Source: Celeribacter ethanolicus
GTDB taxonomy: Bacteria > Pseudomonadota > Alphaproteobacteria > Rhodobacterales > Rhodobacteraceae
Reading direction: 5' to 3'
Assembly: GCF_001550095.1 (NCBI RefSeq)
Contig: NZ_LRUC01000046.1
Location: 1-64,000, forward strand
DNA length: 64,000 nt
Part shown: one piece after another, positions 36,705-41,853 of the stretch
How the letters are laid out: each line of letters begins with the position of its first letter
Numbering within the stretch: the first letter of the stretch is position 1
The notes under the pieces: generated by a model
The model's input: only the letters and a program-made list of their open reading frames with translations
What the model was told of the DNA's origin: nothing
Databases searched by the model: none
Translations under genes and position numbers: made by a program

Positions 36705-37379
36705 TTATTCCGCAGGCGCCGCATCCGGTGCGGTGGGGCCTTCGCCATTCTTGGCGGCTTCGTTCAACTCGGTCACCTTGGTGTAGCCCGCGGTGAAGCC
36801 GGACAGGGACAGTTTGAGTTTGACCGGGTTGTCGCCACGGCCCAGCGGCATGATCGCGACCATGCCTTCGTTGCCCTTTTTCATCAGGTCGATGTCTGCG
36901 GCGGTCAGACCGGCACGCACGTAACAGCCGATCTTGTTGCAGAACTGGAACGGGTATTTGCGGCCGTTTTCGCCATCGACGAACATGGCGAGCTGTGCGG
37001 TCAGCATGGTCTCGAGCGGCGTGGTGAAGGTCGCGGCGGCCTCGACATTTTCCTGGCCGACATGGAAGATCGCGACCTCTGCGACCTCGTTGCCCTCATC
37101 GTCTTTCAGGAGCTGATAGAGCGAGCAGGGATCGGGTTGCCCCTCGGGCGCCTTGAGGCAGCGGATTTCCCAGTCGCCATTGGTTTCCAGCGTGTAGGGA
37201 CGGCCGACATTGTCGGCGGGTGCGGCGGTGCCATCGGGGTTCACGGGCGTGCCCGCAGACAAGGTGTTGTCCTGAGCGGCCAGAGGCTGTGCGAGGGTGA
37301 GCGCACAGGCGGTGACGGTTGCGAAAACGGAAAGTGTACGAGAGACGGAAATCATCATCTGTCCATTGCTGGTTATCAT
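36705..37379 (-). CDS. Invasion-associated locus B (IalB) family periplasmic protein
   Basis: About 224 residues with a signal peptide (SVFATVTACALTLAQPLAAQ). The mature part follows the IalB pattern: WEIRCLKAPEGQPDPCSLYQLLKD, PLETMLTAQLAMFVDG, FQFCNKIGCYVRAGL and KLKLSLSGF. Four Cys can form the two conserved disulfides. The family is common in alphaproteobacteria, periplasmic, and of uncertain function; the name comes from Bartonella. GGAG seven bases before ATG 37379 favours that start. Pro/Ala-rich ends are typical. Confidence 0.85.
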   Translation of the reverse strand: MITSNGQMMISVSRTLSVFATVTACALTLAQPLAAQDNTLSAGTPVNPDGTAAPADNVGRPYTLETNGDWEIRCLKAPEGQPDPCSLYQLLKDDEGNEVAEVAIFHVGQENVEAAATFTTPLETMLTAQLAMFVDGENGRKYPFQFCNKIGCYVRAGLTAADIDLMKKGNEGMVAIMPLGRGDNPVKLKLSLSGFTAGYTKVTELNEAAKNGEGPTAPDAAPAE

Positions 37380-37987
37380 CGGTTGCTCCTGCTCTATCAT
37401 GCGTATGGCAGGCTGTCAGGGGGGGGGCGGAATATTTTCGTGAGGCCGTGCCGGATGTTGGCACGCAGGCCAAGCTTCGCTCATGCCGGAATTTTCCATG
37501 CCGGGCCTCATGTCGGGACCGACGGGCCGAACAACAAAAGCCCCGGTTTCCCGAGGCCTTTGCGATCCAATCGCCACCTGTCTCAAAAACACAGGTTTCT
37601 ATGGTTTTAACGTCTCCCCGTCGGACTTGGCCGACTTATTGGCAGGAACGGTATGACAGGATCGTGATGGCGTCAACGAAAAATTGCATGTCGGAAATTA
37701 CGGTAAAATTCCACAAAATGCGGGACTTGCGTGCTGTCGTTGACGGCTGTCGCCCCGAGAGGATCGTTGTAGTGCGCTTCGGCGCAGAGGCGAAAAAAGC
37801 CGCACCCAAGGAGGTGCGGCCAGTCTGACAGGGAGGAAGTCATTCCGAACCGAAGAGGAGTGGTTCGGATGACACTTAGTCTGGCAGAAATTGGTTAAGA
37901 TTGTATTGTGGCGGCATACGCGGCTGAATTTTCAGAGGATTTCCAATGGAATCGCCGATGCGGACGTTCGAGTGAAGGGGCGAGAGG
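37380..37987. other. Gene-free stretch holding a small RNA candidate
   Basis: Roughly 600 bp with no protein gene; the short frames here are Arg/Lys/Ser-rich and not gene-like. The right part contains the minus-strand small RNA candidate at 37793-37894. The left part (37400-37780) shows no other structure. The promoter and ribosome binding site of the HerA-like gene lie at the right edge (GAGGATG overlaps its start region). Confidence 0.5.
37793..37894 (-). ncRNA. Candidate trans-acting small RNA with three anti-Shine-Dalgarno elements
   Basis: On the minus strand TACAAT at 37905-37900 can serve as -10. The transcript would contain: hairpin 1, with arms CCGAACC/GGTTCGG extended by GTCAT/ATGAC (one bulged A), loop ACTCCTCTTC; a single-stranded ACTTCCTCCCT; then a terminator, GCCGCACC/GGTGCGGC with loop TCCTTG and six T residues. 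CUCCUC, CUUCCUCCC and ACCUCCUU all complement ribosome binding sites. CUUCCUCCC is the mark of rhodobacterial CcsR/cuckoo-type small RNAs and related rhizobial families. No protein gene precedes this terminator on the minus strand, so it must end an RNA of its own. Length about 100 nt. No search was run. Confidence 0.72.
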
Positions 37988-39586
37988 ATGAGTGAGACGG
38001 GCATGGACCGGATTTTCGTGGGCGGTGGCGGTGAGGGCTATGGCATGCCACAGCACCTTTTGTTGAAATATGGCAACCGCCATGGGCTGATCGCGGGCGC
38101 CACGGGGACCGGCAAGACGGTGACGCTGCAAATCCTTGCGGAGAGCTTCTCAAAAGCGGGGGTGCCGGTGTTCCTCTCGGACGTCAAAGGCGATCTCTCC
38201 GGCCTCGCGAAATCCGGCGACGCTTTGGGCAAGCTGCACGACGCCTTCGCCTCGCGTGCCGCAACCATCGGTTTCACCGATTTCGGCTATGACAGTTTCC
38301 CGGTGACCTTCTGGGATCTCTACGGCGAGCAGGGCCACCCGATCCGCACCACCGTCTCCGAGATGGGGCCGCTTCTGCTGAGCCAGCTTTTGCAGCTCAC
38401 CGAGGCGCAGGAAGGCGTTTTGAACATCGCCTTCCGCGTCTCCGACGAACAGGGCTTGCCGCTTCTGGATCTCAAGGACCTGCAATCGCTTCTAATTTGG
38501 GTCGGCGAGAATTCCGACAGCCTGTCGTTGCGCTACGGCAATGTCTCGACGGCCTCCGTCGGCGCGATCCAGCGCGCGCTTCTGGTGCTGGAGAACCAGG
38601 GCGGCGACCGGTTGTTCGGCGAACCTGCGCTGGAGTTGTCCGACATCATGCGCACCGATCCCGACGGGCGCGGGCGCATCTCGATCCTCGCCTCCGACAA
38701 GCTCATGGCCTCGCCCAAACTCTACGCCACCTTCCTGTTATGGCTGCTGTCCGAGCTGTTCGAGGAGCTGCCCGAGGTCGGCAATCCGGACAAGCCCAAG
38801 CTGGTGTTCTTCTTCGACGAGGCGCACCTTCTGTTCGACGACGCGCCCAAGGCGCTGGTGGACAAGGTAGAGCAGGTTGCGCGCCTGATCCGCTCCAAAG
38901 GCGTGGGTGTCTATTTCGTAACGCAAAACCCCGATGACGTGCCCGAGGACATCCTCGGCCAGCTCGGCAACCGCGTACAACATGCGCTGCGGGCCTTTAC
39001 GGCGCGCGATCAGAAGGCGCTGAAACTTGCCGCAGAGACCTACCGGATGAACCCGCGCTTCGACATCGAAACCGCGATCAAGGAAGTCGGGACGGGGGAG
39101 GCGGTCACATCGTTTCTGGAGGCCAAGGGCGTGCCGGGCATGGCGGAGCAGACGCTCATTCGCCCGCCCTCATCGCAGCTCGGGCCGATCACGGCAGGCG
39201 AGCGCGAGGAGATCGTCAAAACCTCGCCGATTGCGGGAAAATACGAGGCGGTGGTGGACCGCGAAAGCGCCTTTGAATTGTTGAAAGCCCGCGCGGCTGC
39301 GGCGGCGCAAGAGGCCGAAGCCGCCGAGGCGACACAGGCGGAGGCGTCCGGAAACGTCCGGGGCCGCGACGAGCTTGAGCGCGAGTTCTCCAAGGCGCGG
39401 CGCTATGATGGCCAGAGCTATGAACGCGCATCGACCAAGACCGGCACGCGCAGCACCTCCTCGCGCAAATCCACGGACAAATCCTTTGGTGAGGAGATGA
39501 CCAAGATGGTCATGAAGGAGCTGACCGGCACCACCGGCAGGCGCATTGTGCGCGGCATCCTCGGCGGGCTGTTCAAGGCCCGCTGA
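37988..39586 (+). CDS. HerA-like/DUF853 ATPase (YjgR-like)
   Basis: 532 residues. Walker A GATGTGKT at 37-44, Walker [14 protein letters not shown] (near 270) and an Arg-rich sensor segment ([35 protein letters not shown]). The C-terminal part is Ala/Glu-rich coiled coil and a basic tail. DUF853/YjgR proteins are HerA-FtsK type NTPases of unknown biological role. The start is not preceded by a strong ribosome site; GAGAGGATGAGTG overlaps the chosen GTG/ATG area. Confidence 0.85.
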
Positions 39587-39597
39587 GGTGGCACGCC

Positions 39598-41853
39598 TTA
39601 AACGGTCACGCTGAGATCGCTCAGGGTCAGATCGCTTTCGGCAAAGGTGATCCCCTCCGCCGGGTTCACCATGGCCAGAAGCCGCGAGCTGCCGTCCTGC
39701 GTCAGGGTGATCTCGAACCGGTTCACCGCCGCATCGAAGCTGATCTCCACCGTGGCGTCGGGCGTCTCGGACAGATCGAGCGCAAGCACATCTTCGCCCG
39801 GGGTGAAATCCGAGATCGTGATGTGACCGGTCTGCTCCGCCTCCATCCCGGCCTCGGCGACGAGTGTCACGCTGTCCGCACCATCGCCGGTCACGACCTC
39901 GCCACCGGCCATCTGGGTGCTCTGCTGATAGACGGTGATGATGTCGTCCCCGGAACCGCCACCTTCTCTGAGATCGCCATAGACCGTGTCGTTGCTGGTC
40001 ACGATCAGCGTGTCATTGCCTTCTCCACCGGAGACGAACACGCCGTCATCGGCAATGCTCGTATTAATCACATCGTCACCCGCGTCGCCATAAATCCGGA
40101 CATGGTCGTAATAGCCATCTTCGAAGAGGGTGATGGTATCGTCGCCCGCATCGCCATGGACCACATAGGTGTCGGAGCTTGCGCCAATGGTGTCCGCGCC
40201 CTCGCCGCCGTCGATGGTGGAATACTCGCCGCCGAGCAGCGTATCGTCGCCTGCGCCGCCGTCGATCGTGTCATAGAACAGGCCGGTGATCGTGTCGTTG
40301 CCCTCGCCGCCGTAGAGATAATCCGAGGCGGCGGTCAAGACGCTGGTGTCCCCGGAGACGATGATGTCATCGCCCGCACCGCCATAGATCGTGTCGGAGC
40401 CGCCTTCGCCATCGAGGATGTCATTGCCCGCGCCGCCATAGATGACATCGTCGCCCGCACCGCCGGTGATGGTATCATCGCCTTCGAGCCCTGTGAGAAG
40501 ATTGTCGCCGTCATCGCCCTCAAGCACTGTCGGCAAGCCGTTGCCGGTGAGGCTGATCATGCTCAGCATCTCGTCCTCGCTCAGCAGATCTTGCCCGTCG
40601 GCCAGATAGATCGTCACCGGAGAAATCGCCTCGCCGTTCATGTCGAGATCGAGCGTGTAATAGGGGCCGTCCGCGTTCGAATGCAGACTGACGGAATAGG
40701 CCCAGCTCTCGTCCCAGCCGCTCAGCGACACCTCAAGCGTGTCGACGCCCGGTTCGAAATCCGTCACCACCGTGTTCCAGGCGTCCAGATCTTCTGCCTC
40801 GTCGAAAGAGGTGCCGGTTGTAAACGTGTCCGCCCCGTCGCCGCCGGTGGCAATCGCCTGTTGCTGCATGACAAGATGATCGTCGCCCGCGCCGCCATCC
40901 AGAATATCCATCGCGTCATCGGCCAGAATGTTTCCGACCCGCCCGCCGAGCAGGACGTCATTGCCGTCGCCGCCATAGAGGATGTCCGTGCCATCGCTGC
41001 CGACGATCATATCGTCGCCCGCGCCGCCATCGACCGCATCGTTGCCGGTTCCGGCCCAGATCTGGTCGTCACCGTCTTCCCCCAGAATCGTGTCGTCGCC
41101 GTTGTCGCCACTCAGACTGTCGTTGCCTTCCCCGCCGAAGATCAGGTCGTTGCCGCTGCCGCCGGAGACGATGTCATCGCCTTCATTGGCGTAGATGGCA
41201 TCATTGCCCATACCGCCCTGAACCAGATCGTCGCCCCAGCCGGCGTCTATGATGTCGATGCCGTTGCCGCCATAAAGACGATCCTCGCCGCCGCCGCCCG
41301 ACAGCATGTCGTTGCCTGCGCCGCCATAGAGCACATCGTGCCCGCTGCCGCCCGAGAGGACATCGTCGCCGTAATTGCCGTCGAGATAATCGTTGCCGCC
41401 TTCGCCCTGGAGCCAGTCGTCGCCGTGATCGCCATAGAGCAGATCGTCGCCGGTGCCGCCTTGCAGATGATCGTCGCCCCAACCGGCATACAGCGTGTCG
41501 CTGCCGGAGCCGCCTACCAGCCGGTCGTCGTCCTGCTGGCCGTTCAGAACGTCATCGCCCGTGCCGCCGAAAATCGTGTCATCGCCGCGGCCGCCCCGCA
41601 AAAGGTCATCACCCGCGCCACCGCGCATCTCATTGATGACGTCGCCGCCGTAGATCGTGTCATCCGAGGCGGAGCCGAAATTCCAGACCGTCGTGGTTTC
41701 GGTGTCGGAAAGATCATCGTCGGAAAGGTTCTCGCCGGAAAGCTCATCCGCGGCGGAGGGTTCCGCCTCGGTTTCATCCTCATCGGTGTCGAACAGACCG
41801 GTGGCCGCATAGGCTAGGGCAGACCCCGCCAAGAGCGTAAGAACAGACAGCAT
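39598..41853 (-). CDS. RTX-type calcium-binding repeat protein with N-terminal hydrophobic anchor
   Basis: 751 residues. Nonapeptide RTX repeats (GGxGxDxUx) fill residues about 70-320 (for example GGAGDDLLRGGRGDDTIFGG) and again 455-640. Each run forms a Ca2+-bound parallel beta-roll. The C-terminus (ITISDFTPGEDVLALDLS ... LLAMVNPAEGITFAESDL) is a beta-sandwich typical of bacterial RTX proteins. The N-terminus (MLSVLTLLAGSALAYAATGLF) is a hydrophobic helix followed by an acidic linker, unlike type I secreted RTX toxins. No linked hlyB/hlyD genes are seen. It may be surface-anchored; function unknown. Confidence 0.88.
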   Translation of the reverse strand: MLSVLTLLAGSALAYAATGLFDTDEDETEAEPSAADELSGENLSDDDLSDTETTTVWNFGSASDDTIYGGDVINEMRGGAGDDLLRGGRGDDTIFGGTGDDVLNGQQDDDRLVGGSGSDTLYAGWGDDHLQGGTGDDLLYGDHGDDWLQGEGGNDYLDGNYGDDVLSGGSGHDVLYGGAGNDMLSGGGGEDRLYGGNGIDIIDAGWGDDLVQGGMGNDAIYANEGDDIVSGGSGNDLIFGGEGNDSLSGDNGDDTILGEDGDDQIWAGTGNDAVDGGAGDDMIVGSDGTDILYGGDGNDVLLGGRVGNILADDAMDILDGGAGDDHLVMQQQAIATGGDGADTFTTGTSFDEAEDLDAWNTVVTDFEPGVDTLEVSLSGWDESWAYSVSLHSNADGPYYTLDLDMNGEAISPVTIYLADGQDLLSEDEMLSMISLTGNGLPTVLEGDDGDNLLTGLEGDDTITGGAGDDVIYGGAGNDILDGEGGSDTIYGGAGDDIIVSGDTSVLTAASDYLYGGEGNDTITGLFYDTIDGGAGDDTLLGGEYSTIDGGEGADTIGASSDTYVVHGDAGDDTITLFEDGYYDHVRIYGDAGDDVINTSIADDGVFVSGGEGNDTLIVTSNDTVYGDLREGGGSGDDIITVYQQSTQMAGGEVVTGDGADSVTLVAEAGMEAEQTGHITISDFTPGEDVLALDLSETPDATVEISFDAAVNRFEITLTQDGSSRLLAMVNPAEGITFAESDLTLSDLSVTV

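Follow-up and report, generated by a model that had tools for sequence, protein, structure and literature searches.

What does the intergenic stretch between a HerA_C ATPase gene and an ialB gene of Celeribacter ethanolicus encode, and how might its product be held in check? The question is raised by a 64,000-nt stretch of contig NZ_LRUC01000046.1 (the window, whose positions are used throughout, with minus-strand elements marked (-); the genome it comes from, G000, is called the own genome), for which an initial annotation had proposed an unannotated small RNA (sRNA) with three anti-Shine-Dalgarno (anti-SD) elements at 37793..37894. The locus is probably a two-RNA cassette, in which an anti-SD RNA, sRNA1, lies beside its sponge, sRNA2. 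What the locus shows is conserved sequence, structure and synteny, a promoter and terminator layout, and a complementarity that far exceeds chance. sRNA1 lies inside the interval first proposed; the adjacent, complementary sRNA2 lies outside it and had been missed.

A structured, conserved and probable anti-SD RNA

The 102-nt stretch 37793-37894 (-) folds with an energy of -42.8 kcal/mol (z -6.25), which 0 of 200 shuffled sequences equalled. The 12-bp hairpin with a CUCCUC loop that had been described is present, with one bulge (hairpin 1), as are the 10-pair stem and U run of the terminator, although a terminator scan on its own is weak evidence, with one terminator in a 501-base region where 0.5 would be expected. 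The anti-SD stretch said to be single-stranded, CUUCCUCCC at 37839-37831 (-), is unpaired save for its first C, which lies within the hairpin stem, and UUCCUCCC is almost wholly unpaired when the RNA is taken as 79 or 82 nt long. The predicted 5' end is 37871 (+/- about 4 nt) and the 3' end falls within the U run. The open reading frames of the window include no plausible same-strand gene directly upstream, in agreement with the earlier statement that no such gene accounts for the terminator.

The initial annotation had named a lack of structure conservation in relatives as grounds for abandoning the candidate, and the structure is conserved. In an alignment of 31 sequences, which was fitted to a model of the same structure so that the counts lean towards it, double changes occur in all nine modelled pairs of hairpin 1, whose two helix parts are paired in 94.4% and 92.1% of cells, and in three of the seven modelled terminator pairs. 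Overall, 12 of 16 pairs have double changes (78 double-change cells), and the covariation score of the whole structure is 0.478 against 0.165 in shuffles, none of which reached it (0/500). A free RNAalifold consensus on a plain sequence alignment recovered the terminator alone, because such an alignment places hairpin 1 poorly. Folded singly, hairpin-1 stretches gave a negative z in 29 of 29 sequences (-0.4 to -6.4); 17 of these were equalled by no more than one of their 200 shuffles, and five (L022, L023, L024, L029 and L030) by at least 10% of them. sRNA1 is very probably a real small RNA and, as far as sequence can tell, its proposed identity as a trans-acting anti-SD RNA is well supported.

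The three anti-SD elements are not equally conserved. The 23-nt core and, more loosely, the hairpin-1 loop are conserved features, but not the third element. The loop contains TCCTC in 50 of 118 distinct loci (shuffled-loop mean 6, maximum 13), whereas half of the element in the terminator loop is taken up by the stem, its mean P(unpaired) being 0.49, and only one of the 118 loci, the window itself, has ACCTCC in its terminator part. Invariance of the core is circular in those locus sets that were chosen by the core.

A predicted adjacent RNA complementary to sRNA1

The second RNA lies about 150 nt downstream of sRNA1. BLASTN with the intergenic stretch between sRNA1 and ialB picked out a short block that is conserved in 42 of 138 loci, and a 5' hairpin of the form GUCGG-CC(A)AGU-CCGAC followed by (A/G)GGGAG is present, with up to five edits, in 119 of 123 (controls: reversed motif 1/123, complement 1/123, shuffled segments 0/123, upstream flank 1/121). 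This hairpin could be scored in 118 of the 119 loci. Its five pairs are each standard in 117 or 118 of these, one of them varying between U-A, U-G and C-G. It is preceded in 118 of 119 loci by TTGAC[CG]-N17-TANNNT, always with a spacer of 17 (0/119 in shuffled sequence), and a terminator-like structure follows in 108 of 119. On sequence, then, sRNA2 would have what defines a sponge, namely transcription as a unit of its own and complementarity to another RNA's seed.

The sRNA2 segment GGCC(A)AGUCCGAC(A/G)GGGAG is a near-perfect complement of the sRNA1 core, extending over about 18 nt with one A.C mismatch and, in the window, also a bulged A. Its form GGCCAGUCCGACAGGGAG is the reverse complement of CUCCCUGUCGGACUGGCC, from which sRNA1 departs by one base (A for G) and the core of SorX, a related anti-SD RNA, likewise by one base (U for C, a G.U pair). 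Duplexes between cognate segments of 35-36 nt have a median of -38.7 kcal/mol against -19.5 kcal/mol for shuffled ones, with 2 of 5950 shuffles as good. Where sRNA1 reads ACUUGCC instead of ACUGGCC, sRNA2 carries the matching A at four of seven loci, against 1 of 112 others (Fisher p 2e-5), and cognate pairs bind slightly more strongly than permuted ones (-38.45 vs -38.04; 0 of 2000 permutations as low), both tests being uncorrected for shared ancestry.

Related anti-SD RNAs (siblings) are predicted to pair with sRNA2 at similar strength. In the own genome the values are -35.5 for sRNA1, -42.3 for a sibling between LysR-type and purL-type genes, the strongest of the three tested, and -26.4 for an eroded SorX. 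Five other genomes have both sRNA1 and SorX; there the predicted values range from -33.8 to -39.2 for sRNA1 and from -33.6 to -43.4 for SorX. An MmgR-type core from another genome reaches -31.6. A search for the sponge 18-mer with one mismatch allowed gave matches in 0 of 140 class-sample genomes outside the family; the same search misses the sRNA2 of the window, in which the 18-mer has more than one difference, and what it matches in the own genome is the complement of the sRNA1 core.

Predicted overlapping promoters upstream of sRNA1

TACAAT had been read as the -10 box of the RNA. The box exists at 37905-37900 (-), but it is probably the complement of the -10 of the divergent HerA_C gene. 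By column composition, a conserved block A[AC][AC]ATA ... TGCCAG (112/118 loci) reads on the plus strand as CTGGCA-N17-TATnnT, followed at a suitable spacing by an initiator-like CG. In the eight loci where no HerA_C gene was found, this -10 decays (T4 in 2/8 and A5 in 1/8, against 102/110 and 103/110 elsewhere) while TTAA (7-8/8), G24 (7), A27 (8) and T31 (8) are kept. For this reason the extended -10 of sRNA1, including the xAxxxT positions, was set at 37886-37878, with a start near 37871. G24, A27 and T31 are present in 106, 110 and 106 of the 110 loci with the HerA_C gene, although the promoter-register search rewards the positions later counted and its score is dominated by TTAACC. The first paired base of hairpin 1 lies 5-8 nt after T31 in 80 of 118 loci.

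TTAACC itself is mostly kept where the HerA_C gene was not found, and is possibly a regulator site. A generic promoter scan found no promoter on either strand, the predicted HerA_C promoter included. A closing helix in a longer RNA, formed by GCCAGUCU/AGACUGGC or CUGCCAG/CUGUCAG, was rejected for want of double changes; the bases concerned are better explained as promoter elements outside sRNA1.

Genomic context and distribution

sRNA1 is present in one copy in the own genome. Both of its flanking genes are found in 107 of the 118 distinct relative loci, the HerA_C gene alone in three and ialB alone in eight; in the 30 loci fetched first, some of them short, ialB was found in 29 and the HerA_C gene in 26. 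The loci in which no HerA_C gene was found (L015, L019, L087, L088, L097, L110, L121 and L168) all keep ialB, so that both RNAs may track ialB rather than the ATPase gene. Features of the locus are collected in Table 1. Further along the window, 39598-41853 (-) holds a long open reading frame with glycine/aspartate-rich repeats that by eye resemble RTX-type calcium-binding repeats.

Table 1. Predicted features of the sRNA1-sRNA2 locus in the window.
Feature	Positions	Strand	Basis or detail
sRNA1, anti-SD small RNA	37793..37871	-	covariance-model matches, covariation, extended -10 placement; 5' end inferred
Hairpin 1 of sRNA1, CUCCUC in loop	37839..37873	-	stem letters vary, pairing kept
Near-invariant 23-nt core UUCCUCCCUGUCAGACUGGCCGC	37816..37838	-	alignments, accessibility; unpaired UUCCUCCC is the anti-SD seed
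sRNA1 intrinsic terminator, 10-pair stem (37821-37798) and U run to 37793	37793..37821	-	
Predicted extended -10 of sRNA1 (TGC CAGACT)	37878..37886	-	conservation of G24, A27 and T31
TTAACC	37893..37898	-	near-invariant, between two overlapping divergent promoters
Predicted sigma-70-type promoter of the divergent HerA_C gene	37881..37909	+	-35 CTGGCA 37881-37886, 17-bp spacer, -10 TATTGT 37904-37909
sRNA2, candidate sponge RNA	37530..37640	-	motif in 119/123 loci
Sponge motif GGCCAAGUCCGACGGGGAG, complement of sRNA1 core	37614..37632	-	extends over hairpin 37635-37620 and the unpaired bases that follow
sRNA2 promoter	37648..37676	-	TTGACG 37676-37671, 17-bp spacer, TACCGT 37653-37648
Terminator-like hairpin of sRNA2	37536..37561	-	fold
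HerA_C (PF05872) ATPase gene, divergent neighbour	37988..39586	+	Pfam match, synteny
IalB-family (PF06776) gene, 3' of the sRNAs, same strand	36705..37400	-	Pfam; found in 115/118 loci

Among relatives, BLASTN (E<=0.01) matched sRNA1 in 51 of 101 genomes, and the covariance model R3 (E<=0.001) matched 343 of 394 Rhodobacteraceae genomes, a set with practically one genome per genus; the own genome is included in both counts. A hand count puts 50 of these 343 genomes at a best E no stronger than 1e-8; such matches could be siblings, and setting them aside leaves a strong class of about 293 of 394. One weak match, in G036 (1.2e-6), is non-syntenic: an RNA near 1761 (+) of locus L268 (G036:C56:8000-11600) has nearly the same core, UUUCCUCCCUGUCUGACUUGCCGG, and a terminator, and the HerA_C gene, ialB and sRNA2 are all absent from the 3.6 kb fetched around it, so that it is either a moved copy or another sibling. 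Outside the family, R3 matched 10 of 140 genomes (5e-7 to 7e-5). Among the 80 stretches listed, of at least 116, the named hosts include Roseovarius, Sulfitobacter, Pacificibacter, Frigidibacter, Defluviimonas and Rhodobacter capsulatus SP108, and R. sphaeroides is not among them.

Relationship to known RNA families

No Rfam family exceeded its gathering score for sRNA1 or sRNA2, permissive searches giving sub-threshold matches alone; Rfam annotation therefore misses both RNAs, and the description of sRNA1 as unannotated stands. The covariance models of anti-SD RNA families to which the initial annotation had pointed were all sub-threshold for sRNA1, namely SorX (RF02784; 28.0 bits, gathering 46.6), ar14 (RF02344; 23.0 bits, gathering 58.8) and suhB/alpha-r8/MmgR (RF00519; 18.5 bits, gathering 41), while the core proved to be common to SorX and alpha-r8: in a side-by-side comparison, all three types share CCUCCCU-(GU)-GACU ahead of the terminator. 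One of eight orthologous loci scanned against the SorX model, L052, passes (48.6 vs 46.6).

The related RNAs occupy other loci. In the two relatives checked, alpha-r8 proper adjoins an FGase gene at a separate locus, whereas the neighbours of sRNA1 are HerA_C and IalB. A SorX-like RNA of the own genome (L049, G000:C3:61119-61196; 40.2 bits, below cut-off) lies 3' of an OmpR-type (Response_reg/Trans_reg_C) gene; most of its CCUCCCUGU core is gone, whereas SorX keeps the core in several other genomes of the family. The LysR/purL sibling (L050, G000:C2:48266-48340) carries ACCUCCCUGUUGGACUU, has a promoter that we take to be RpoH-like, and may be a counterpart of StsR. The HerA_C/ialB-linked type coexists with alpha-r8 in G034 and with over-cut-off SorX in G021, G025, G028, G029 and G032, and model R2 (E<=0.001), run on the 12 stretches L049-L060, found only L052, the HerA_C/ialB-linked one. 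Given the sub-threshold scores and the presence of alpha-r8 and SorX-like RNAs elsewhere, sRNA1 is thus a separate, syntenic subfamily of the anti-SD superfamily, with alpha-r8 (MmgR/SisA) and SorX as its nearest kin.

The closest described parallel is in Caulobacter crescentus, where the alpha-r8 sRNAs SisA-D repress mRNAs, those for transporters among them, by way of an anti-SD 10-mer, and carbon starvation induces CrfA, which sequesters these siblings (PMC12559287). Both systems have an unpaired anti-SD stretch, (U)UUCCUCCCU, 3' of a hairpin and followed by a terminator, siblings at several loci and a second RNA complementary to the anti-SD stretch. They differ in that the candidate sponge here adjoins one sibling, with a predicted complementarity of about 18 nt, in the sequence, neighbours and Rfam score of sRNA1, and in that the antagonism here is predicted. 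That paper defines alpha-r8 by a single-stranded UUUCCUCCCU 3' of a weak hairpin and a terminator; the window has CUUCCUCCCU (9/10), mostly unpaired, after a strong hairpin, and the exact 10-mer is present in L019, L025 and L026. A core of the UUUCCUCCCU kind and a terminator are shared with MmgR/alpha-r8/suhB, but the sRNA1 type has GUC inserted in the core. SorX of Rhodobacter sphaeroides is of similar length (75 nt) and has the CCUCCCUGU..GACUGGCC core before its terminator (PMC6238624), from which sRNA1 differs in being intergenic with its own predicted promoter, besides the separate SorX-like RNA of the own genome.

The suggested link to cuckoo/CcsR RNAs was not supported. These share anti-SD motifs with sRNA1, and CcsR is from Rhodobacteraceae. 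The rhizobial families have CCUCCUCCC in three or four hairpin loops, RS0680a has two anti-SD stem loops, and CcsR1-4 are cotranscribed with ccaF1 in four copies in R. sphaeroides (PMC3927594, PMC8307010). sRNA1, in contrast, has one hairpin loop (CUCCUC) and no CCUCCUCCC loop motif, its CUUCCUCCC sitting between helices, and it is a single copy flanked by HerA_C and IalB rather than ccaF1; on these grounds it does not fit the group. StsR (RSs0827) of R. sphaeroides, 72 nt long, resembles the present system in having another sRNA, UpsM, as its pairing partner, and differs in its dependence on RpoHI/HII (PMC8307010), in which it may be more like the L050 sibling.

No earlier description of either RNA was recognised among the papers that literature searches listed, most of them judged by their listing alone. 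The RNA-seq lists of Paracoccus denitrificans (intergenic 134, 60 and 28; PMC5107571) and Ruegeria pomeroyi (PMC4809877) may hold one or both.

Proposed function and alternatives

We infer transcription, Hfq binding, mRNA targets, the direction of regulation and its conditions in the following scheme. sRNA1 (37871-37793) would be a short intergenic trans-acting RNA that runs from a 5' hairpin through an unpaired UUCCUCCC and then UGUCAGACUGGCC to a terminator and a U tail. It would bind Hfq and lower the translation of several mRNAs by covering their GGAGG-type ribosome-binding sites. sRNA2 (37640-37530), with its own predicted sigma-70-type promoter and terminator, would expose AGGGAG/GGGGAG beside a small hairpin and sequester sRNA1 and its SorX-type and LysR/purL-type siblings, to which it is predicted to bind with similar strength. 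Repression would thereby be relieved and the mRNAs freed, as PMC12559287 describes for CrfA and SisA-D. A family-wide version, in which the sponge titrates all anti-SD siblings and so sets the general level of anti-SD repression in most Rhodobacteraceae genera, is more tentative, and our confidence in it falls a little short of even.

In the own genome, CAGGGAGGA lies 3-10 nt before ATG at 24 matches, one site being counted twice (reversed pattern 2), and the comparison motifs AAGGGAGGA, CAAGGAGGA and TAAGGAGGA at 12, 7 and 3 (reversed 1, 0 and 0). In these counts, which are uncorrected for composition, CAGGGAGGA is about twice as common as AAGGGAGGA, and more so relative to CAAGGAGGA or TAAGGAGGA. 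Pfam searches of 20 predicted genes from 23 CAGGGAGGA sites (three short frames being left out) gave four substrate-binding proteins and one ABC permease; 22 control genes, judged by eye from the first 50 residues alone, included two apparent transporter binding proteins.

Several results weigh against the cassette. Target prediction in the own genome gave nothing specific, and no target is claimed. The sRNA2 motif is missing in four of 123 loci (L027, L091, L113 and L124), and a terminator went undetected in 11 of 119. The G-to-U change in sRNA1 goes unanswered by sRNA2 at three of the seven loci, and a G-to-C change (ACUCGCC) has no matching change at two. Because the position of the mismatch fits the siblings better, sRNA1 may not be the main partner, although the own SorX, without most of its core, pairs weakly. 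More broadly, the complementarity of sRNA2 could be mimicry of ribosome-binding sites for another purpose. If so, sRNA1 would be an ordinary anti-SD RNA and sRNA2 an independent Shine-Dalgarno mimic acting elsewhere, for example on another C-rich RNA, with no dedicated antagonism. This is unlikely but credible: siblings pair strongly with sRNA2, SorX being the better partner in three of the five other genomes and the GGACUU-type sibling in two of two (own and G021), and AGGGAG taken by itself is merely Shine-Dalgarno-like, but the match extends well beyond such a site (GGCCAGUC-GAC), the motif follows sRNA1 at nearly every locus, and the ACUUGCC/GGCAAGU change is coordinated at more than half of the loci that show it.

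Two further explanations concern the nature of the RNAs themselves. That sRNA1 is a diverged alpha-r8 (MmgR/SisA) or SorX member and nothing beyond would fit the common 3' module, the sub-threshold Rfam matches, the score of L052 just over the SorX gathering score and the non-syntenic G036 RNA with nearly the same core; it is nevertheless quite unlikely, given the separate positions of alpha-r8 and of the own SorX, the coexistence of the types within single genomes and the selectivity of model R2. Both structures might instead belong to a long ialB leader, as prematurely terminated 5' untranslated region RNAs attenuating ialB (compare UpsM in the dcw cluster), a view to which the shared strand and the linkage to ialB at almost all loci, all eight without a HerA_C gene included, lend something. 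It is very unlikely, since sRNA2 has its own predicted promoter between the RNAs, both RNAs end in terminator-like structures, the distance from the core to ialB varies widely among loci, and the anti-SD core would be left unexplained.

Under the cassette reading, a sponge partner would help to explain why the 23-nt core is near-invariant, something for which pairing with ribosome sites alone does not account. Anti-SD RNAs could in principle strike very many mRNAs, which raises the question of their restraint in cells. If the reading is true, a sponge encoded beside its target RNA and kept across a large, ecologically important family would make that restraint directly testable.
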